This document shows, piece after piece, positions 2,012-26,051 of a stretch of 28,364 bases of DNA. The notes below the pieces were generated by a model. It was given only the letters and a program-made list of their open reading frames with translations. It was not told the DNA's origin and made no database searches. How positions within the stretch are numbered: the stretch's first letter is position 1; the number at the start of each line of letters is the position of its first letter. A program made the translations under genes and the position numbers. The DNA is from a virus: the IMG/VR virus record IMGVR_UViG_3300042887_001392, positions 1 to 28,364 of that record; one strand, 5' to 3'.

Positions 2012-3268
2012 TTAGTTAATTGGTTGTTCTTGTCCGGCTTGATTAATGTTAGGATCGTTAACTCTATCGGCACGTTCAATTTGTGCCTCTAACATATTAT
2101 CTTCACCTACTTCACTGTCTTGTCCTGTTACTACATCAACAACTTCCTCATCATCACTGTATAAGTTTAATTGCTGAATACCTAAAACATAATCACTACC
2201 AAAATTAATTTTTAAAATCTCATCAAAACAATCTAAGATTGCTTGTTGGAATGGTTTGATTACTGTATTAGTGAATAACAAATATGCCTCACTAGTTTCT
2301 GTTCTACCACCTAATTGACCTTCGGTTTTGATACCTAACATCATAGGAGATGTAATACGGTGAGCAGTTAATATTTTTTGCGTTACTAAGTCGTTTATAG
2401 TTGTATAATAAACGTCTGTTCCGTTTGAGTCGATAGGGGTTATGATTGGTGCATTATCTGGACTATCAACGTCCATATAAATTAATGAACCAGCATTTTC
2501 TGTACCACCGTATTGACTGCGAAGCATTATTTCAATTGCTTCTCTTTCTTCCTCATTTGCATTAGTGAATGTGGTAATAGCAAGAGAAGGTACAACACCA
2601 TTAGTAATGTTGTTAAGGTGAAAATTGTCAATTTGTGCATCTAATTCAATTACTTTTAAAGCACCTACATAATCAGGTACAGGATAATACTTCATACCTG
2701 GACGATAGGCTTCATAAACGTAAATTTGAGATGGTTCTTCGTCTTTTTTTAATGGATTATATACAGGTAAAAATGGGATATCTTCTAATGATTGGTTAAC
2801 ATATGAACTTACGCCATTCCATTCATCCCAAATGTAGTAACCTGGAATCTTACCTCTAAAGTTTTTTTCTTTAGCACGTAAGTATGAAAAATCAATGTGG
2901 TATACTTCAGCAATCTTGCTTCTATCTTTAGACCAGATTACTTCCAAAGCAAACCCACCAAATAATTTAAGATCTTTAGCTACTTTTTTAAGCAAATCAT
3001 TCCAAGATTCACCTTCAAAGTTTGCAAAATCTAATGTCTCAGGTTTATCACTTGTTAAACCATTACCTACAATTGAGTCAACTGTAGCATTGATACAAGT
3101 TCCGTGAATTGATGAATAGTTCATCAAATCGATTAATTTGTTAGGAAAACCATTGTCAGCTCCAAAACTAATATAGAATTGATTCTTACGCTCTATTAAA
3201 CTAATACGTTGGTTAGTTTGAACATTACGTGGAATAGTTTTGAATGTATATTTTTTATTTTCACTCAT
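2012..3268 (-). CDS. Portal protein
   Basis: A 418-residue protein. The portal forms the dodecameric ring at one capsid vertex through which DNA enters and leaves. It has the outline of SPP1/HK97-type portals. An N-terminal segment binds near a FGADNGFPNKLIDLMNYSS-like stretch (residues about 34-52). The core alternates short beta strands and helices (LFGGFALEVIWSKD, then IYVYEAYRPG). A long stem helix region follows (DLVTQKILTAHRITSPMMLGI, about 295-315), and the C-terminal tail is acidic. The length is typical. Unusually, it is downstream of the capsid gene here instead of just after the terminase. The start is an ATG 2 nt after the previous gene's stop. Confidence 0.82.
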   Translation of the reverse strand: MSENKKYTFKTIPRNVQTNQRISLIERKNQFYISFGADNGFPNKLIDLMNYSSIHGTCINATVDSIVGNGLTSDKPETLDFANFEGESWNDLLKKVAKDLKLFGGFALEVIWSKDRSKIAEVYHIDFSYLRAKEKNFRGKIPGYYIWDEWNGVSSYVNQSLEDIPFLPVYNPLKKDEEPSQIYVYEAYRPGMKYYPVPDYVGALKVIELDAQIDNFHLNNITNGVVPSLAITTFTNANEEEREAIEIMLRSQYGGTENAGSLIYMDVDSPDNAPIITPIDSNGTDVYYTTINDLVTQKILTAHRITSPMMLGIKTEGQLGGRTETSEAYLLFTNTVIKPFQQAILDCFDEILKINFGSDYVLGIQQLNLYSDDEEVVDVVTGQDSEVGEDNMLEAQIERADRVNDPNINQAGQEQPIN

Positions 3269-4390: not shown

Positions 4391-5332
4391 TTAGGCTTCA
4401 GCGCTAACCCAGAATTCAGGATAAGCAATGTTAACTCCTAATTTGGTAGAAATACGGTGACGCAAGGTGTCAGTATTGATATCATACCACAATTGGAATT
4501 CAGTGAAATCGCTCAATAAATCTGTACCAGCGACGATTTGCTTAGCAGGACCAAACTTAATGGTATTTACACCTTGCAAACCAATAGTACCTACTACAGT
4601 TACGTTAGGTTGGAAAGGATACTTCATTTCATACAAACCAGGACGGTTAGTAACAGAAGCTGGATCGAAATAGAAGTTGTTAGCAGTACGCAAAGCAGTC
4701 AAGTAGTTACGGAATAAAGTAACACTCATGAAGAAAGTTAAATCTTCTCTGTCAGCAACATCAGCACTTGAGGTAGCGATCATTCCGTCCATAGTGGTCA
4801 AAATGTTAGCAGCTGAACCTGAAGCAGCGATGAATGGGAAACGAATAACACCTGCAGTTGAAGAACTGATAGTTACGTTCAAACCGTTTACAGCACAAGT
4901 TCCACCGAAGGTAGAAGCTGAACCTGAAACTTGCTGCCACAAGAATTGGTCGTTTGCTTTTTGGAATTGGTTTACTAACAATTCGCTGTACTGAGTAGCT
5001 AATGCGAAAGTTTCGTTGTAAGAACCTGGAGCCAAAGCAGAGATACCTAAGTATTTCTTATCTAAGTCTTTCAAGCACAATGCATCGAATGAAGTACGAG
5101 GACAAACCTCAATTGTACGTTGGGTAAAAGTAGCTGATCCAGAGGCAGTGCTTACGCAAGTACCATTCTGCATATACAAGCTAACTTCGAAAAGGTTAAT
5201 AGGCTCTTGGTATTTAACACCTTCTTGAATGGTGATATATTCCATTGTTGAACCAGCATAAACCATCTTGATGATCAACTCACCAGCAACCTGGTTGTTG
5301 AAGTCGGATAGAGCGGCGACGTTTAATGACAT
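4391..5332 (-). CDS. Major capsid protein
   Basis: A 313-residue protein starting MSLNVAALSDFNNQVAGELI. Evidence is mainly context and composition. It directly follows a scaffold-like gene, has a length suited to a small HK97-fold subunit, mixes helices (about residues 115-135, an FALATQYSELLVNQFQKAND-type spine helix) with beta segments, and ends in conserved aromatic residues (PEFWVS). Codon choice is shifted to TTC, AAC, AAG and TTG compared with neighbours such as the tape measure, which fits a very highly expressed gene. I see no separate delta domain at the N-terminus; scaffolding is supplied by the upstream gene. The protein has four to five cysteines, which is somewhat unusual. Confidence 0.75.
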   Translation of the reverse strand: MSLNVAALSDFNNQVAGELIIKMVYAGSTMEYITIQEGVKYQEPINLFEVSLYMQNGTCVSTASGSATFTQRTIEVCPRTSFDALCLKDLDKKYLGISALAPGSYNETFALATQYSELLVNQFQKANDQFLWQQVSGSASTFGGTCAVNGLNVTISSSTAGVIRFPFIAASGSAANILTTMDGMIATSSADVADREDLTFFMSVTLFRNYLTALRTANNFYFDPASVTNRPGLYEMKYPFQPNVTVVGTIGLQGVNTIKFGPAKQIVAGTDLLSDFTEFQLWYDINTDTLRHRISTKLGVNIAYPEFWVSAEA

Positions 5333-5358: not shown

Positions 5359-6066
5359 TTATTTGTTTTTATTTTTAAGTAATTCAGCCATAACTTTCAT
5401 TTGTTTGGCTTTCAATGAATCTCCACCGAATGTATCTTTTTTAACATCAGCAGACATCATAGTTTTATCTTTAGCAGGAGACTTCATAAATTCTTCCATT
5501 TTAGTCTTCATTGACTTCATTTCTTCTTTGATACCAGCGATTTCAGAAGCGATAGTTTCGTCGATAGCCATCTTAACTTTTTTCATCATTTCGGCTTCAA
5601 CTTCAGCTTCAGTTTTAACTGGGCCAGTCAATGTAGATACTGGAACATTAGTTTCAGTTACTGCATTTTGAGGAGTAGTACCTTCAACATTTGAAATTGA
5701 TTCTTTAGCAGCAAATGCTTCTTCAACAGCAGCGTTAGCTTGATCTTCAACTACACCTAATCCATCTTCCATAGACATTTCTTCTTCAGTTTTACCTTCA
5801 GGAGAAACAATTTCTACTACAGATGAACCTTCAGTTTTAATCATAGTACCATCTTCTAATTTGTGGTATCCATCGGGAGCGAGGCTTTCTTGGCCTTCTT
5901 TGGTTACAACTTTAACTTCGTCGCCTACTTTCAAAGTATCACCAGGGAAAACGATTTTGAACGCTTTGTTCTCATCAAATACTTCACCAAATGCTTCTTT
6001 TACAGGAGTTTTATCAACTAAGCCAAAGTGTTGTTTAACCAACTCTTTTAATTGTTCTTTGTTCAT
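5359..6066 (-). CDS. Capsid scaffolding-like protein
   Basis: A 235-residue, highly acidic and Lys-rich protein without aromatic clusters. Residues about 40-90 form a small beta domain (FPGDTLKVGDEVKVVTKEG, DGYHKLEDGTMIKTEG). The middle is acidic and disordered. Residues about 150-195 form a Lys/Glu/Met-rich coiled coil (EAEVEAEMMKKVKMAIDET onward), and the C-terminus is basic. This layout (disordered middle, long coiled coil, basic tail that could touch the capsid shell) and the place immediately before the capsid gene and after the protease fit a scaffold removed by the XkdF protease. No database family is claimed. The start is an ATG in an A/T-only leader. Confidence 0.65.
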   Translation of the reverse strand: MNKEQLKELVKQHFGLVDKTPVKEAFGEVFDENKAFKIVFPGDTLKVGDEVKVVTKEGQESLAPDGYHKLEDGTMIKTEGSSVVEIVSPEGKTEEEMSMEDGLGVVEDQANAAVEEAFAAKESISNVEGTTPQNAVTETNVPVSTLTGPVKTEAEVEAEMMKKVKMAIDETIASEIAGIKEEMKSMKTKMEEFMKSPAKDKTMMSADVKKDTFGGDSLKAKQMKVMAELLKNKNK

Positions 6067-6238: not shown

Positions 6239-8512
6239 TTATTTTTTAGTTAGTACGTTATTGTAGAAATAGCCCTCAACTGAGAAGCCTTTAACTTTAC
6301 CTGTTTTAACATATTCGTTCCAAACACGTCTGTTATCAATTTTGTACATTCCATACCATTGACCAGTAATAGGTTGAAAACCATATAATACTGATTTATC
6401 AGCTTCTGGATCTTTAACAATCCAAGTTTCAACTAAATAAGCATCATCAACTCTATGAGCACCATCGTGTTCAATGTTAACTGAATCAACTAATTTATCT
6501 TGCATCATTTTATATGCAATTTTCTCAATTGTTTCTTTAGAGAAAAATACTTGATATTCCTCACCTGTTTCTTCATCAACACGAGGAATTAATTTACCTG
6601 GAGTCATTAATGGACCTACTAACATTTGCTTTTCAGCTAATTCAGAAGCGAAATTACGTTTTCTATTTCCAGTAGATGCTTCATTAACAAAGTTAGGTAA
6701 TGCAGCTACATTAATGTTAAATTCTTCTTCGGTTAAATAATCTGCTATTATATCAAGATGTCCTTCCATATAATCAACGTTATGTGTCATTCCTACTTCC
6801 TCATCTATCTCGTGCATTAAATCATAAAAATCATTGACTAATATAAATGCTTCTGTATAGTCATCAAGTGTAGAGGACTCATTTTTTAACACACGTGCTT
6901 CTATTTCAAACACATTATCAGCTATTTGAGCTGCTGAACGAATCATTCCCTTTGTTTCTTCATCAGGATTCATTTGTTTTAAATGTTCAAAAGTAGATAT
7001 AGCACCTGGACATATATAGAAAAATTCTGTTGGATAACCAAACACAGTTATAAAAAATGACTCATTAAATTGTTCACGTTTAGGATGTTTAGTAGGTAAC
7101 AGATCATAATCTGTTGTATATTTTTTATTTTGTGGACGTCCTTCTTTAACCAAATATAAAAAAGCATTAACACGTGCTAAAGCCCATTGTTTAGCACCTC
7201 CACGAGCTGCCACTGAAGGTGAACGAGATGTGTTATAGGCGCCTAAACCACGTTGATAAACAGATTTAAGTTGTCCTACATTTACACCATATCCTAATTT
7301 ATCTTTATAACGCTCATTAAAATCATCTACTTTCTTTTGTAATGTTTCTTCTGTAGCTTTATCTACTTCAGCACCACGTGAAGTTGAAGCATCACCTTTA
7401 GCTGAACCTTCACCTTTAGGATTAGGATTAGGAGTATCTGATTTAGGTGCTTTTTTAGATTCTTTAATACCACCACGAGGACCAATCTCAGCATATACTT
7501 GAGGTTCATTAGGTGGCATTTGAGGAATGTTTGATTTCAATAATGACATTTCTTGTTTTATAAGTTCCTCTATTATAACGGCTTCAGGATCAACTAACGC
7601 AAAATTGTGTTTGGTTGCATAGTCGTCGTTATTAGTCACTATATAGAACTTATCTAAGTAAGCCATACGTTCACCTATTCTCATTCCTTCTAATACATCT
7701 GTTTTATACTTAAATTTACTCATTAAGTATTCAGTATAAGCAGTACCAGCTAAGAACATAAAACGATCATACTGTAAACTGTACTTATCTAATATTTGGC
7801 TATATACTTTGTTAGCCCAATCTTTTCTTTGTTGTGATGAAAAATTCTTTAATGTCAAATTATAAGGCTCAATCATTTGATCTAAATCAGTCAAATAATA
7901 TTTTGCAGATAATATTTTAATGTAATTATCATCTTTTTGTTGCTTACGAGCAAACGATAATGACTTATCAAATAATGGTGAATCATACATTTCCTCAGCA
8001 GCACACTTGTAATCTAATTTTTCTGAAGAACAAGAAATTAAATAAACATCTTTACCTTCATCTGAGAATTTAGAAAATTCAATACCTGCTTGACGTAATT
8101 TCTTTTCAGCCCAAGGTAATGCTGCTTCACCACCCCATAACAAATATGAGATATATCCACAAGCATTATAATCTTTACGTTTAGTAGCTAATTCATAATT
8201 GCCCTTTTGACGGATTAAAAATGAACGCATACGTTGAATAGTATCAAGTGTTAATTTTTCACCATTTACTAATTGTTGTGCTCTTACTTTACCTACTTGA
8301 GTAGCACATTTGTTATTATTTTTTTCATTTAATTCAATACCACGTTTAGCAGCATCAACTGCTGCTTGTGGATAGTCATTATGGGTTAATTCAGCCATAC
8401 TGACTTTATTGAATGCGATAAAATTTTCTTCTATTGCTGGTGATTCAACTAATGCCGTAGCATCAAATCCTGAGATTACTGAATCATCTATTTTAAGTTC
8501 TACTATTTTCAT
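6239..8512 (-). CDS. XkdF-type prohead protease interrupted by a large multi-domain insert
   Basis: A 757-residue protein. Residues 1-36 (KIVELKIDDSVISGFDATAL, then VESPAIEENFIAFN) match the N-terminus of XkdF putative serine proteases (Peptidase_S78_2). The rest of that domain resumes only at about 620-748 (VGPLMTPGKLIPR, YQVFFSKETIEKIA, VNIEHDGAH with His-682, GQWYGMYKI, VKGFSVEGYF with Ser-744). Between them lie a helical domain ending in YISYLLWGG (about 47-145), a DUF6884-like domain (154-290: ISCSSEKL, ILSAKYYLTDL, IEPYNLTL), a Lys/Pro/Gly-rich linker (340-385), a DUF5824-like segment (388-475: SVYQRGLGAYNTS, QWALARVNAFL, DYDLLP) and a helical region (480-600). Typical XkdF proteins are far shorter. 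The enzyme would trim scaffold and capsid during head maturation. Its stop overlaps nothing; its start shares one base with the tape-measure stop. Confidence 0.8.
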   Translation of the reverse strand: MKIVELKIDDSVISGFDATALVESPAIEENFIAFNKVSMAELTHNDYPQAAVDAAKRGIELNEKNNNKCATQVGKVRAQQLVNGEKLTLDTIQRMRSFLIRQKGNYELATKRKDYNACGYISYLLWGGEAALPWAEKKLRQAGIEFSKFSDEGKDVYLISCSSEKLDYKCAAEEMYDSPLFDKSLSFARKQQKDDNYIKILSAKYYLTDLDQMIEPYNLTLKNFSSQQRKDWANKVYSQILDKYSLQYDRFMFLAGTAYTEYLMSKFKYKTDVLEGMRIGERMAYLDKFYIVTNNDDYATKHNFALVDPEAVIIEELIKQEMSLLKSNIPQMPPNEPQVYAEIGPRGGIKESKKAPKSDTPNPNPKGEGSAKGDASTSRGAEVDKATEETLQKKVDDFNERYKDKLGYGVNVGQLKSVYQRGLGAYNTSRSPSVAARGGAKQWALARVNAFLYLVKEGRPQNKKYTTDYDLLPTKHPKREQFNESFFITVFGYPTEFFYICPGAISTFEHLKQMNPDEETKGMIRSAAQIADNVFEIEARVLKNESSTLDDYTEAFILVNDFYDLMHEIDEEVGMTHNVDYMEGHLDIIADYLTEEEFNINVAALPNFVNEASTGNRKRNFASELAEKQMLVGPLMTPGKLIPRVDEETGEEYQVFFSKETIEKIAYKMMQDKLVDSVNIEHDGAHRVDDAYLVETWIVKDPEADKSVLYGFQPITGQWYGMYKIDNRRVWNEYVKTGKVKGFSVEGYFYNNVLTKK

Positions 8513-17460: not shown

Positions 17461-17826
17461 TTATTCTATTGTAATATCCAAGCTATCCTTAAGTTTCTTT
17501 AACTGGTCTTGAATTCCACACCATAACAAGAACTTATTGTATAGACCAAATTCTAGAATAAAGTCAAGTGCTAATTTTTCTTCTTCCCCTTCAGCAAATG
17601 GAGTTTGTGTTAAATCATCTTCACTTACAATATCAAATTCCTCATACATACCTGATTTAGCATCTGCAGGAGGTGTATATGGTGGTATTTCTACATTACT
17701 GTAGTCTTTAGGTTCAATTTTAATTGTTTCTGCAGTATTGTACTTTTTATTAGCTTTAATAATTTCAGGTGTAACTACTGGTTGTGTTGGATTTCTCTCT
17801 TCTTCTGTTTTAAATACGATTGGCAT
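17461..17826 (-). CDS. 121-aa acidic protein after the terminase, unknown
   Basis: A 121-residue protein starting MPIVFKTEEERNPTQPVVTP. The first about 75 residues are Pro/Glu/Thr-rich and probably disordered (NVEIPPYTPPADAKSGMYEE). The last about 45 form helices (LALDFILEFGLYNKFLLWCG, then a Lys/Asp-rich end). It overlaps the end of the large terminase gene by 17 nt, so it is translationally coupled to packaging. No family is recognised. A small terminase-associated or portal-linked cofactor would fit the place, but this is inference only. Confidence 0.65.
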   Translation of the reverse strand: MPIVFKTEEERNPTQPVVTPEIIKANKKYNTAETIKIEPKDYSNVEIPPYTPPADAKSGMYEEFDIVSEDDLTQTPFAEGEEEKLALDFILEFGLYNKFLLWCGIQDQLKKLKDSLDITIE

Positions 17827-19075
17827 ATAATTGATTATTATTTTGTTTATTTGTGTTTCCTATATAAATTTTTGATTTAGTAAATGCGTGTTCATTACGA
17901 GATAAATTAGCTAACATAATAGCATCAACTACATCATCGTGCATTCCCTGAGGATGTGTAAATGATACATTACCATTAGCAGCATACTTAAATGTATAAG
18001 CACTCATTTCATTAAATACCTCAGGCATTAATTGTTTTGATGGTAATTCAACTTTACCTTCCTGAATATCATAAATTAGCTTACGGACGCCTTTGGTTTT
18101 ACTATCTTGAGTAGTAGTAAATGCTACTAGTTTACGAATATATGGTTTTAATAGTTCGTACATTGCTAATCCAATCCCATTTGTTTCGCAAAATCCTCCC
18201 ACGACATTCCACTTATTGCACTCAAATATGATATCCTTTCCAATTTCCTCAAATGTGCGTCCGTTAGTTCTAATAATTTTTTCGATTCTTCCCGATTCGC
18301 TTTGGATAGCGCAAACTGTAAAATCATTTGTGATTCCAGTGTCAACTCCAATATAATAGCGTTCACTTCTTGTTGGTATTCCCCACTCATCTAATATACA
18401 TACTAAATCTAAATTTGTAAATACATCATTACCTGCATCTGTAAATTCAGCTAAATACTCTTGATAGTAAATGTCTTTAGGTAATGACTTATGTTGTTCT
18501 ATAATAAAATCTTTATCAACGTATGGATTATCACGACTAATACCTTTAAATGATATATAGACGTTATTAGACGTGTTACCTCGCAAGAAATACTCATAGA
18601 ACCAGTTCTTGCTTTTAGGTGTAGATATAATTAAACATTTCTTACCAATAGCAGTTAATGTGGGTAATACAGCTTGTTCAATAGCATCTTGCTTTATAAA
18701 GGCAGCCTCGTCAAGTACCATATAGTTAAAACTAAAACCTCTAATGGTATTATAGTTGTCAGTAGATAAAAATTGTAAAGTAGACCCATTAAGAAATGTG
18801 ATTGTAAGGTCTGCTTTATTTTGTTTATTAATAATTGAATGAGCAGCATTAGTTAATTCGTCAAATATTTTCTTACATTGATTGTATACAGGAGTAATCC
18901 AAGCACCTTTTTGATTTGGATTCTGTAGCAACCAATATAGCATCATATTTTGAGCCAATAATGATTTTCCGAACTGCCTACCAGTTGCTACTATTCCAAA
19001 CTTATGTACTGAATCAGCAAACCCATCAATGATTGCTTTCTGTCCTTTATGTGGGCTAAATAATTGTATCTCCAT
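17810..19075 (-). CDS. terL: Large terminase subunit (packaging ATPase-nuclease)
   Basis: A 421-residue protein that pumps DNA into the prohead through the portal and cuts concatemers. ATPase motifs: Walker A ATGRQFGKS (30-38), Walker B YMVLDEA (118-124) with the catalytic Glu, and coupling motif ISTP (150-153). Nuclease (RNase H-like) motifs: GVDTGITNDF (243-252, Asp-245), FCETNGIG (295-302, Glu-297) and GMHDDVVDA (377-385, Asp-380/381/384). Full length and all key residues are present, so it should be active. It follows the small subunit with a 20-nt overlap. The packaging strategy cannot be read from the sequence. Confidence 0.96.
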   Translation of the reverse strand: MEIQLFSPHKGQKAIIDGFADSVHKFGIVATGRQFGKSLLAQNMMLYWLLQNPNQKGAWITPVYNQCKKIFDELTNAAHSIINKQNKADLTITFLNGSTLQFLSTDNYNTIRGFSFNYMVLDEAAFIKQDAIEQAVLPTLTAIGKKCLIISTPKSKNWFYEYFLRGNTSNNVYISFKGISRDNPYVDKDFIIEQHKSLPKDIYYQEYLAEFTDAGNDVFTNLDLVCILDEWGIPTRSERYYIGVDTGITNDFTVCAIQSESGRIEKIIRTNGRTFEEIGKDIIFECNKWNVVGGFCETNGIGLAMYELLKPYIRKLVAFTTTQDSKTKGVRKLIYDIQEGKVELPSKQLMPEVFNEMSAYTFKYAANGNVSFTHPQGMHDDVVDAIMLANLSRNEHAFTKSKIYIGNTNKQNNNQLYANRI

Positions 19076-20323: not shown

Positions 20324-20878
20324 TTAATTTGCGTATTTCCAAATAAATCCTGCTGATGTTTTTTGTTTACCTCTGCAACAAGCGTCAATATCTCCTTTAT
20401 ATTGTTCCTTAACTGATTTAACTGAATTCCATTGTTTAATAAAATTACCTTCTAAATCATATTGATTAACTACTTTATACATTTTTTCAATATGTTCTTG
20501 ACTATGTTTAGGTTTATCACGTTGAGCATCACCTATTTTTTTATAATCCATTTTAGAAGTTCTATGTGTTTTAAAAGCTGCACTCCAATCAACTTTTGCT
20601 TTAGCTGTTTTCCAATCAATTTTAGAAGCTATTTCTTTTCTATCCAATTTAGATTGCCATTCCATCATACGAGCAAATGAACTTCTATCTACTTTATAAC
20701 CATACTCTCTTTGTAGTTCTTTTTCTCTAATAGAAGCTATATTAGGGTCAGTATATGCCTCTAATATTTCATAATTTCCATTATAAACTTTTTGTTGCAT
20801 CATTCGGCGTTCTATATTAGATGTACAACCTATTTTTTTACCAAAAATTTCGTAGATGTAATAAATTTTATTTGCCAT
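20324..20878 (-). CDS. Free-standing GIY-YIG homing endonuclease
   Basis: A 184-residue protein. The N-terminal GIY-YIG module (1-60) shows a degenerate YYIYEIFGKKIGCTSNIERR, with Arg in the helix (24/25) and a likely catalytic Glu at 54. A charged linker follows with repeats of K-x-D-W/Y at about 86-112 and a basic stretch to 133. The C-terminus (136-184: VNQYDLEGNFIKQW, SVKSVKEQYKGDIDACCRG, GFIWKY) fits the NUMOD1 DNA-binding motif. Such genes are selfish elements that cut alleles lacking them. It lies between membrane-protein genes and terminase, overlapping the former by 11 nt. The first motif is YIY rather than GIY, so activity is not certain. Confidence 0.8.
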   Translation of the reverse strand: MANKIYYIYEIFGKKIGCTSNIERRMMQQKVYNGNYEILEAYTDPNIASIREKELQREYGYKVDRSSFARMMEWQSKLDRKEIASKIDWKTAKAKVDWSAAFKTHRTSKMDYKKIGDAQRDKPKHSQEHIEKMYKVVNQYDLEGNFIKQWNSVKSVKEQYKGDIDACCRGKQKTSAGFIWKYAN

Positions 20879-21122: not shown

Positions 21123-21282
21123 TAATAATATCTTTTAGTTGTCGTTCTACTTCCGCTCGTATGAGCTCATTTAATTTTCGTTGTTTACGCGTTTTAAACC
21201 GTTTTATACACGCTACTAATATAGGAGCGTAAAATGTAGCGACTGATGCTAAGGTAGCGGTTAATATAAAATATAATATCAT
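21115..21282 (-). CDS. 55-aa single-pass membrane protein, holin/spanin-like candidate
   Basis: A short frame from the ATG at 21282, whose last bases overlap the stop of the sigma-like gene (ATGA arrangement), to TGA at 21117-21115. The product begins MILYFILTATLASVATFYAP and has one N-terminal membrane segment (about 2-25) followed by a strongly basic stretch (KRFKTRKQRK) and a Glu/Arg helix. It overlaps the next membrane gene by 8 nt. Tight coupling on both sides supports coding. A single membrane segment with a charged cytoplasmic helix fits a spanin-like or holin-partner protein, but no family is recognised. Confidence 0.65.
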   Translation of the reverse strand: MILYFILTATLASVATFYAPILVACIKRFKTRKQRKLNELIRAEVERQLKDIIND

Positions 21283-21848
21283 TGTAGTATTGCTTTACAT
21301 TTGTTTCTAATAATTTCTAATCCATTGTCTACTGCTCGTTTTAAATGAATTAAGGATATACCATATTTCTTATTTATCTGAGCATAGGTCATACTGTTTA
21401 AAAAATAATCAGTGATAATGGCTTTATGGTAAAAGTCTAATTTATCTAATTGTTGTACCATACATTCAAATTCATCTATTTCCTCTAATTTAATTTCATC
21501 ATATTCACCGTCTATATAACTTTTACTTGATTCAGCTAAGTAAATGCCTCTGTTGTTATACATTTGTCTTCTATATTGACCCCAAAACGGTGATGTGCTG
21601 GATTTTAAATTTAGAGACATTGAACGTCCCATATAATTAAGTATTTTCTTATCTGTAACAGCTACTTTATACTGATAGTCAATTGATTTCTTTGTTAGAA
21701 ATTCGTGAATACAAAACGGTAATAAATCCTCCCACATATCAGAATTGTATCCTGTGATACGAATAGAATCTTTAACCATCTTAGGATAAGCTAAAGTTAT
21801 TTCCCTGTTGATAAAATCACGTTTTTCATTATCTGTTAAAACATTCAT
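21279..21848 (-). CDS. Sigma-factor-like / helix-turn-helix transcription protein
   Basis: A 189-residue protein starting MNVLTDNEKRDFINREITLA, the first gene of the leftward array. Its outline matches small sigma-70-like proteins seen in Bacteroidota phages: an N-terminal helical region with SDMWEDLLPFCIHEFLTKKS (about 36-55, like region 2), a middle linker with SPFWGQYRRQMYNNRGIY, and a C-terminal helix-turn-helix (about 152-182, MTYAQINKKYGISLIHLKRA) like sigma region 4. It would direct RNA polymerase to late phage promoters. Activity is inferred from outline only; a terminase-related or DNA-binding regulator is the alternative. The gene lies directly beside the divergent regulatory region. 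Confidence 0.55.
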   Translation of the reverse strand: MNVLTDNEKRDFINREITLAYPKMVKDSIRITGYNSDMWEDLLPFCIHEFLTKKSIDYQYKVAVTDKKILNYMGRSMSLNLKSSTSPFWGQYRRQMYNNRGIYLAESSKSYIDGEYDEIKLEEIDEFECMVQQLDKLDFYHKAIITDYFLNSMTYAQINKKYGISLIHLKRAVDNGLEIIRNKCKAILQ

Positions 21849-25166: not shown

Positions 25167-26051
25167 TTAATAAGTATTATAGAAATTATCAAAATTAGTT
25201 CTGATATTAGTTCTTTGAGTATCAACATTGTTATATAATATCCACTCACTCATTCTACCATTAGTATAAAATGAAGCACCAAAAGGTCCTCTACCTATAT
25301 TTGTTTTAGTAAATGATGAAGCTAAGAAACTTGTATTATATGGAGACGCAGGATTATCTAAAGTAAAATTAGTTTGTGAACCATCAATCCATAAAAATGA
25401 ATTATTTGTTCCAGCACCAACATTATAAAGTAAATCAACTAAAACAATATTACTATTAGCTACACTTTGTTGTCCTAATCTAGCTCCACTACTAGCTACT
25501 ATAGATACAGCACCTCCTCCTGTTTCATAAGGACCATAACTGTATCCATTATCTGGAGAGCACCAAAGGAATCCATTAGCAGTATAAGCATCTATAGTAC
25601 AAACAGAAAATACTTCAGCTATTTTATTGGATGTAAAAGCAGTTGTTTGTGCAAAATATTGATCAGTACCATTAAATGAACAAGCAGGTATTCCAGATGA
25701 ACCAGTAATAACAGTACTTCCATTCCAAATTAAAGGTCCTACTCCTGTACCTGCTCCTGTTTGATTAACACCATTTCCGCTTTGATCATACCAAGTAACA
25801 ATATGACCATTTGAAGCACCACAAAATGATGCTAAAGAAGCTGTGTCTAATATGTTATCTACAAATCCAATATCTTGTTGAGTTCCATCACTTGCTTTTC
25901 TAACTCTAAAAGCAGAACCTGTATAAGTTGAACTTAATTTTCTAGCTACTGAGTAAGCAACAAATGAGCTTGTATATGCTAATACAAAATCAAATGCTGG
26001 AGGTGCTGGAGCTGCTGCTGCTGATTTTATAAACGCGAAAGGTGTAAACAT
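25167..26051 (-). CDS. Lectin / arabinofuranosidase-type fibre-associated protein
   Basis: A 294-residue protein. After a short hydrophobic start and an Ala/Pro linker (AAAAPAPPAF), the body looks like the ArabFuran-catal / LamG-like jelly roll often found on phage fibres: AYSVARKLSSTYTGSAFRVR (about 32-51), DIGFVDNILDTASLASFCG (57-75), GHIVTWYDQSGNG (80-92), then CSFNGTDQYF and a C-terminal LamG-type strand with GRMSEWILYN. Such domains bind or trim surface polysaccharide. Key catalytic residues cannot be judged by eye, so binding without hydrolysis is possible. It follows the 933-aa fibre by 3 nt, so it is likely an attached or chaperone-like tip protein. Confidence 0.7.
   Translation of the reverse strand: MFTPFAFIKSAAAAPAPPAFDFVLAYTSSFVAYSVARKLSSTYTGSAFRVRKASDGTQQDIGFVDNILDTASLASFCGASNGHIVTWYDQSGNGVNQTGAGTGVGPLIWNGSTVITGSSGIPACSFNGTDQYFAQTTAFTSNKIAEVFSVCTIDAYTANGFLWCSPDNGYSYGPYETGGGAVSIVASSGARLGQQSVANSNIVLVDLLYNVGAGTNNSFLWIDGSQTNFTLDNPASPYNTSFLASSFTKTNIGRGPFGASFYTNGRMSEWILYNNVDTQRTNIRTNFDNFYNTY

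Follow-up and report, generated by a model that had tools for sequence, protein, structure and literature searches.

An XkdF-type phage head protease with shuffled domain modules suggested to be addressed into the virus head

Polyvalent proteins of phages and conjugative elements are long multi-domain polypeptides with shuffled modules that occur among virion genes of the portal and terminase type (Iyer et al. 2017, PMC5512222). They include MuF and portal fusions and a rare class with an assemblin-like peptidase, which is always C-terminal (PMC5512222). The Dar proteins of phage P1 (DarA, Hdf, and others) are internal proteins, one of which is cut by the head protease; they are ejected with the DNA and protect against restriction (PMC12810830). 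In SPN3US, the head protease cuts internal proteins, and the released propeptides mostly leave the head (PMC10052503).

The window analyzed in this study, that is, the whole stretch of 28,364 bases, is a virus record encoding a 757-aa protein (P0001) that fits the polyvalent-protein design. Unlike domains (protease, DUF6884, DUF5824, LLWGG, and MID) are joined in one chain, the ORF lies beside virion genes, and the phage has a terminase and a portal. The protease core is C-terminal, as in the rare peptidase class, and its family S78_2 is presumably assemblin-like; in contiguous relatives, the peptidase is N-terminal and the modules stand behind it. What differs is the cassette on a protease chassis. 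In the family of the window protein, the protease is the constant part, its N-terminal strand pair is kept N-terminal with the modules in between, and the same modules occur on protease, portal, and capsid fusions and on either side of the core. Tudor, SH3, YaaA, XkdF, and the modules named here are absent from the text of PMC5512222. The Dar proteins, likened to the window modules by description only, are encoded by separate genes, whereas the window modules are inserted in the protease. The internal or ejection proteins of T4 and SPN3US are processed by the phage's own head protease and kept in the head, as we infer for the window modules, but they are separate substrates with N-terminal propeptides, whereas the candidate cargo of the window would lie in cis inside the protease. 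With gp1 (XkdF) of Nonlabens phage P12024S, the window protein shares the core, catalytic residues, N-terminal element, and location among head genes; gp1 has a gap of about 15 residues and a scaffold-like tail, whereas in the window protein the modules fill about 580 residues and the scaffold has its own gene.

Domain organization of the window protease

The features of the window are listed below.

6239-8512, minus strand: protease ORF, 757 aa from ATG to stop
8405..8512, minus strand: N-terminal XkdF element, residues 1-36, predicted strands at 2-7 and 15-22 (AlphaFold2, AF2)
8078..8386, minus strand: LLWGG helical module, residues 43-145 (PHROG_2859, AF2, profile)
7652..8047, minus strand: DUF6884 module, residues 156-287 (Pfam PF21818)
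7073..7501, minus strand: DUF5824 module with conserved lead-in AEIGPRGGIKESKKAPKSDTPN, residues 338-480 (Pfam PF19141)
6713..7057, minus strand: MID helical module without known family, residues 486-600 (AF2 and module profile)
6653..6724, minus strand: linker preceding the core, residues 597-620, NVAALPNFVNEASTG, predicted disordered (AF2)
6242..6664, minus strand: XkdF/S78_2 protease core, residues 617-757, with His682 and Ser744 (Pfam PF14550)
5359..6066, minus strand: separate scaffold-like protein (position and sequence comparison)
4391..5332, minus strand: putative major capsid protein (position and a weak PHROG_11320 match)
2012..3268, minus strand: portal protein (PHROG portal match, 5e-40)
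17810-19075: large terminase subunit (Pfam/PHROG scans)

Judged by sequence, the window ORF codes for a head-maturation protease of the XkdF family that retains its catalytic residues and is presumably active. The Peptidase_S78_2/XkdF family (Pfam PF14550) matched residues 621-747 (2.3e-9; 37.7 bits, cut-off 24), in agreement with an initial annotation that had recognized the remainder of XkdF at residues ~620-748, including the motifs HDG (His682) and GFSVEG (Ser744). The catalytic Ser is kept in 24 of 24 rows of the alignment (A5) and the Glu-His pair in at least 90%, so members with the same layout that are catalytically unrelated to XkdF did not emerge, and the core dN/dS between relatives is 0.01-0.21. 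The description of a split protease domain requires revision. The N-terminal element is indeed separated from the core, but the Pfam model does not include it. The catalytic domain as Pfam defines it is uninterrupted, being matched contiguously (profile positions 5-120 of 126) in the window and likewise in eight of nine relatives scanned.

The assignment of residues 1-36 to the N-terminal strand part of XkdF held, since this element is conserved and directly precedes the core in 67 contiguous relatives. It has eight invariant positions among 25 split proteins (alignment A4), namely L6, A21, V23, P26, A27, E29, F32, and F35 in the numbering of the 339-aa relative L057. The element may pack on the core; AlphaFold2, read by its confidence values and predicted secondary structure, gave a pTM of 0.32 for P0001 and 0.45 for L057. 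Distances of the N-terminal element and the core are strongly correlated in split proteins (Mantel r 0.86, and 0.87 in another run). We rejected this correlation as a sign of contact because the LLWGG-core correlation is equally high (0.86), which points to co-inheritance; the DUF5824-core correlation is looser (0.55). A fold search with the P0001 and L057 models found no PDB match at E ≤ 0.001, a BFVD fold search returned XkdF proteins, and sequence searches found no solved homolog of LLWGG or P0001.

Between the N-terminal element and the core lies an insert of about 580 residues, close to the 575 originally estimated, which consists of several independent domains. The helical LLWGG, DUF6884, and DUF5824 domains named in the initial annotation were recovered with Pfam, PHROG, and AF2, and a fourth helical module, MID, had been overlooked. 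The LLWGG region matches PHROG_2859 at residues 29-142 (2.6e-12) and is predicted to be all-helical, with five helices (pLDDT 83-97). The DUF6884 module (4.7e-35 at 156-287, above the curated Pfam cut-off) keeps CxxxK at 161-165 and has LSAKYY at 201, where the G of the LSAxxG motif is replaced by Y. Among PADLOC families, it matches PDC-M57A, a candidate defence family (6e-41). DUF6884 has been described as a YaaA-like fold with a positively charged cleft that is probably DNA-binding, and its member YfjM as interacting with DNA lesions (PMC11701544). Because of this description and the PDC-M57A match, at least one module may plausibly be directed at DNA or at defence. DUF5824 was matched at residues 408-469 (6.7e-6; 26.7 bits, cut-off 25). 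MID, at approximately 486-600, is predicted with a pLDDT of 91-97, and scanning with its module profile places it in further architectures and orders. AF2 predicts disorder at residues 28-41, 147-155, 329-379, 459-484, and 596-623, the last with pLDDT below 50.

A linker motif, (N/D)V(S/T/A)AL(P/A)x(F/Y), recurs between modules (window 6653-6724; L016, L052, and L031) and resembles the N-terminal arm SLNVAALSDFNN of the capsid protein of the same phage (window 4391-5332). Tested against shuffled sequences, the resemblance gave 34/2000 for the window, 0/500 for L016, and 2/500 for L052, and it was weak or absent in L048, L062, and L113. The amphipathic segment IIEELIKQEM (window 7541-7582, residues ~311-324) is a recurrent feature of linkers in split proteins. 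In other members, a comparable LLEEIKxIL stretch stands behind the core at the C-terminus; segments of this type may be capsid- or scaffold-binding helices.

Scaffold, major capsid, and portal genes are encoded alongside the window protease, so that an XkdF-type context is present. The scaffold-like protein is a separate gene in the window; in Nonlabens phage P12024S and the prophage-like loci L450 and L452, a similar segment follows the protease within one polypeptide. The module profile scan gave no module match in the window portal. Elsewhere in the window, a T5orf172/MUG113-like (GIY-YIG type) protein lies near the terminase genes (20324-20878; weak, below the cut-off), a Sigma-70 region 4-like protein at 21279-21848 falls just under the cut-off, and the product of 25167-26051, in the putative tail-fibre region, is similar to the beginning of an alpha-L-arabinofuranosidase B domain (5.7e-11).

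Layouts and module exchange among relatives

Relatives were collected by pattern-based scans and were thus sampled unevenly; the scan with P0001 gave 80 relatives, and that with a contiguous relative gave 600 or more, from which 80 were retained. Both parts are present in 110 distinct proteins; 67 of these have a gap of 11-15 residues between the N-terminal element and the core, 43 have one of 160-907 residues, and none has an intermediate length. The gap in the window protein and its copy (L002) is about 580-590 residues. A wider set contains 81 contiguous and 50 split proteins, and the smallest split gap is 111 residues. In P12024S, a cultured Nonlabens phage, the protease is contiguous, with a gap of about 15 residues and a scaffold-like tail behind, and the same form is found at loci in Flavobacteriaceae genomes. 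On a core-only tree rooted on the Nonlabens protein, which has only 124 columns and many unresolved forks, one change of layout suffices. On these gap counts, the tree, P12024S, and the Flavobacteriaceae loci, we consider the contiguous layout to be ordinary and the window layout to be derived, and the earlier statement that the two parts are adjacent in ordinary XkdF proteins is borne out by the 67 relatives with gaps of 11-15 residues. The contiguous form matched seven genome contigs, mostly of Flavobacteriaceae and other Bacteroidota, and a genome search found no relatives of P0001 in bacterial genomes. Since contiguous-form relatives occur in Bacteroidota genomes, the host of the window phage is likely a member of Bacteroidota. 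In L021 (4646-6027), the N-terminal element, LLWGG, MID, and core are distributed over two overlapping frames, by either natural fission or sequencing error.

Module profiles, which were built from the very data scanned and applied at an i-E threshold of 0.01, distinguish about 50 module orders in 253 distinct protease ORFs. The order in the window is N-LLWGG-D6884-D5824-MID-PROT, and others are N-LLWGG-D6884-CPGY-PROT, N-CRHW-D5824-LLWGG-PROT, and N-PROT-LLWGG-ZCHH-D5824, where CRHW, CPGY, and ZCHH are names coined here for further small modules (ZCHH is Pfam DUF3721). The modules stand on either side of the core, depending on the relative. DNA homology between the window and its close relatives breaks at residue ~147 (L026, L038, and L046), at residues 307-340 (L003, L011, L013, and L026), and at residue 480 (L004 and L026), and it resumes at residues 594-598 (L004, L011, L013, L026, L038, and L046). 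These breakpoints coincide with module borders, where AF2 predicts disorder. The pair L032 and L075 has a dN of 0.003 in the core and 0.69 in LLWGG, a difference that by sequence is a swap of one module. The window DUF5824 is 65-79% identical to that of relatives whose core is merely 31-48% identical, whereas within the clade of the window the values are 85-91% for DUF5824 and 78-99% for the core. Because these identities diverge, the modules and the core have partly separate histories.

The dN/dS values of the modules are mostly 0.02-0.28, and the modules are therefore kept by selection. These values led us to reject pure recombination noise in the linker, and they weigh against the idea that the linker is a tolerant recombination site gathering domains of no use to the phage. 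The wide range of lengths and the many cassette exchanges speak for such a site, but the same few modules recur on unrelated head proteins in bacterial and archaeal viruses, and we consider this explanation very improbable.

The C-terminal end of the protease in L048, L051, and L056 is a CDGSH-type iron-sulphur motif, CRKNGSCVCGRTESSNGLCDGSH, a possible further module, and HAD-phosphatase-like modules lie within protease or portal ORFs of L029 (765-855 of the protein), L066, and L288. At 31% identity, the L057 model matches BFVD A0A6J5KKZ6, a protein of an uncultured phage whose name refers to a Zeta toxin domain, so the modules may include a toxin-like domain.

The same modules on portal and capsid proteins

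Other carriers were sought by two scans seeded with the LLWGG of other chassis and by Pfam/PHROG scans; single sequences served as seeds, since divergence within the LLWGG alignment (A3) was too great for scanning by pattern. The A3 profile finds LLWGG across bacterial and archaeal viruses. LLWGG and either DUF5824 or TUDOR precede Peptidase_S78 and Phage_capsid in a single ORF. Portal fusions have the orders portal-LLWGG-DUF5824-DUF3721, portal-LLWGG-CRHW, and, in haloarchaeal viruses, portal-LLWGG-MuF, and a fusion of about 1,400 aa reads DUF2213-DUF5824-LLWGG-DUF3721. The carriers belong to unrelated bacterial and archaeal viruses, with annotated examples in Roseobacter phages CRP-811/823, Halogranum virus HGTV-1 (gp11, prohead protease), Actinomycetia phage DSL-LC01, Halorubrum virus HRTV-28 (gp10), and HRTV-4 (gp30). 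A head chassis was identified by profile on 270 of 283 full-length LLWGG ORFs, and six of the remaining 13 are portals by PHROGs, all of the haloarchaeal type; this count is biased, as 197 of the 344 distinct LLWGG ORFs are XkdF, partly because the scans selected for XkdF.

LLWGG also occurs alone, in S-CBS4 gp19, between the portal and capsid genes, and in PaBG gp148, in a DNA-metabolism/replication region. These solitary forms make an independent function of LLWGG probable, and the location of PaBG gp148 shows that it is not exclusively a head module. The passages found on the PaBG proteome describe gel-visible proteins and do not name gp148. In the papers found, there was no virion proteomics of HGTV-1 or HRTV-4, and we found neither virion proteomics nor cleavage data for any relative.

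A complete portal and a complete protease are encoded together at 78 loci. The portal carries LLWGG at 12 of them and the protease at 56, but no locus has it on both (8.6 expected by chance); for CRHW, the counts are 55 for the portal, eight for the protease, and none for both (5.6 expected). The nominal probabilities (1.5e-8 for LLWGG and 2.1e-5 for CRHW) are both overstated and are not independent evidence, because the tree accommodates the pattern with one change of location per module. LLWGG and CRHW have each moved between portal and protease without a second copy arising, and this fits a function that needs a location in the head and not a given carrier.

Proposed role of the modules in the head

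The occurrence of the modules on protease, portal, and capsid proteins suggests, from sequence comparison, that they are domains addressed into the virus head. Head proteases of this class are incorporated into the procapsid. We propose, at about even chance, that the XkdF protease carries the modules into the procapsid and that cleavage frees them, some being kept in the head and acting early. The module cassette lies in the linker that joins the N-terminal strand pair to the catalytic core, and the protease would bring the fused modules along as it enters the procapsid. The disordered linkers would be natural cleavage sites, although we know of no cleavage motif for the XkdF family, and the folded modules would survive and be released. 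At least some of them would stay in the head and act early in infection, with phage DNA, host DNA, or host defences as their targets. We infer catalytic activity, cleavage, retention, ejection, and the roles of the individual modules; retention and ejection are proposed on the precedents of the P1 Dar proteins and the SPN3US internal proteins. Indirect support for cargo comes from the portal, MuF, and capsid fusions, the absence of loci with one module on both portal and protease, and shuffling at module borders, while the exit of the SPN3US propeptides counts against retention. More tentatively, LLWGG, DUF5824, DUF3721, TUDOR, DUF6884, HAD, and CRHW may form a pool shared by tailed bacterial and archaeal viruses, mostly present in one copy per genome, able to move between portal, protease, and protease-capsid fusions as loading routes, and cut loose by the head protease as cargo directed at DNA or defence upon entry.

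Alternatively, the modules might act solely in head assembly, as scaffold-like filler, a regulator of protease activation, or a packaging aid, and be cut and exit before packaging. Propeptides released by the head proteases of phages as a rule leave the head (PMC10052503), separation of the N-terminal element from the core could serve activation, and Nonlabens phage P12024S and the prophage-like loci have a scaffold fused to this protease. We nevertheless hold this to be unlikely: the window has a separate scaffold, the module sets turn over among close relatives with near-identical cores, as parts essential for assembly do not usually do, the modules are also found on the portal, which remains in the virion, and LLWGG also occurs alone. 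Retention without delivery is a further reading, in which the modules stay attached or bound in the capsid as structural, DNA-contacting parts and injection is secondary or absent. Pairs of P1 DarA and Hdf, which sit on the inside of the capsid and bind capsid and DNA, with DarA cut by the head protease (PMC12810830), would be the model, and the probable DNA-binding cleft of DUF6884 (PMC11701544) and the resemblance of the linker motif to the capsid protein arm in the window, L016, and L052 would agree with it. The weakness or absence of this resemblance in L048, L062, and L113, a module content too variable for a fixed structural role, and the enzyme-like modules (HAD and DUF6884), which are not expected as structural parts, make it quite improbable in our view.

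To our knowledge, head-loaded phage proteins and their loading routes are known for few model phages. If the modules carried by the XkdF protease and its counterparts are cargo, injected proteins would be readable from portal, protease, and capsid fusions in uncultured marine, freshwater, and hypersaline viruses, and LLWGG, DUF5824, DUF3721, MID, and CRHW, together with the defence-related DUF6884, would become testable early-infection factors.
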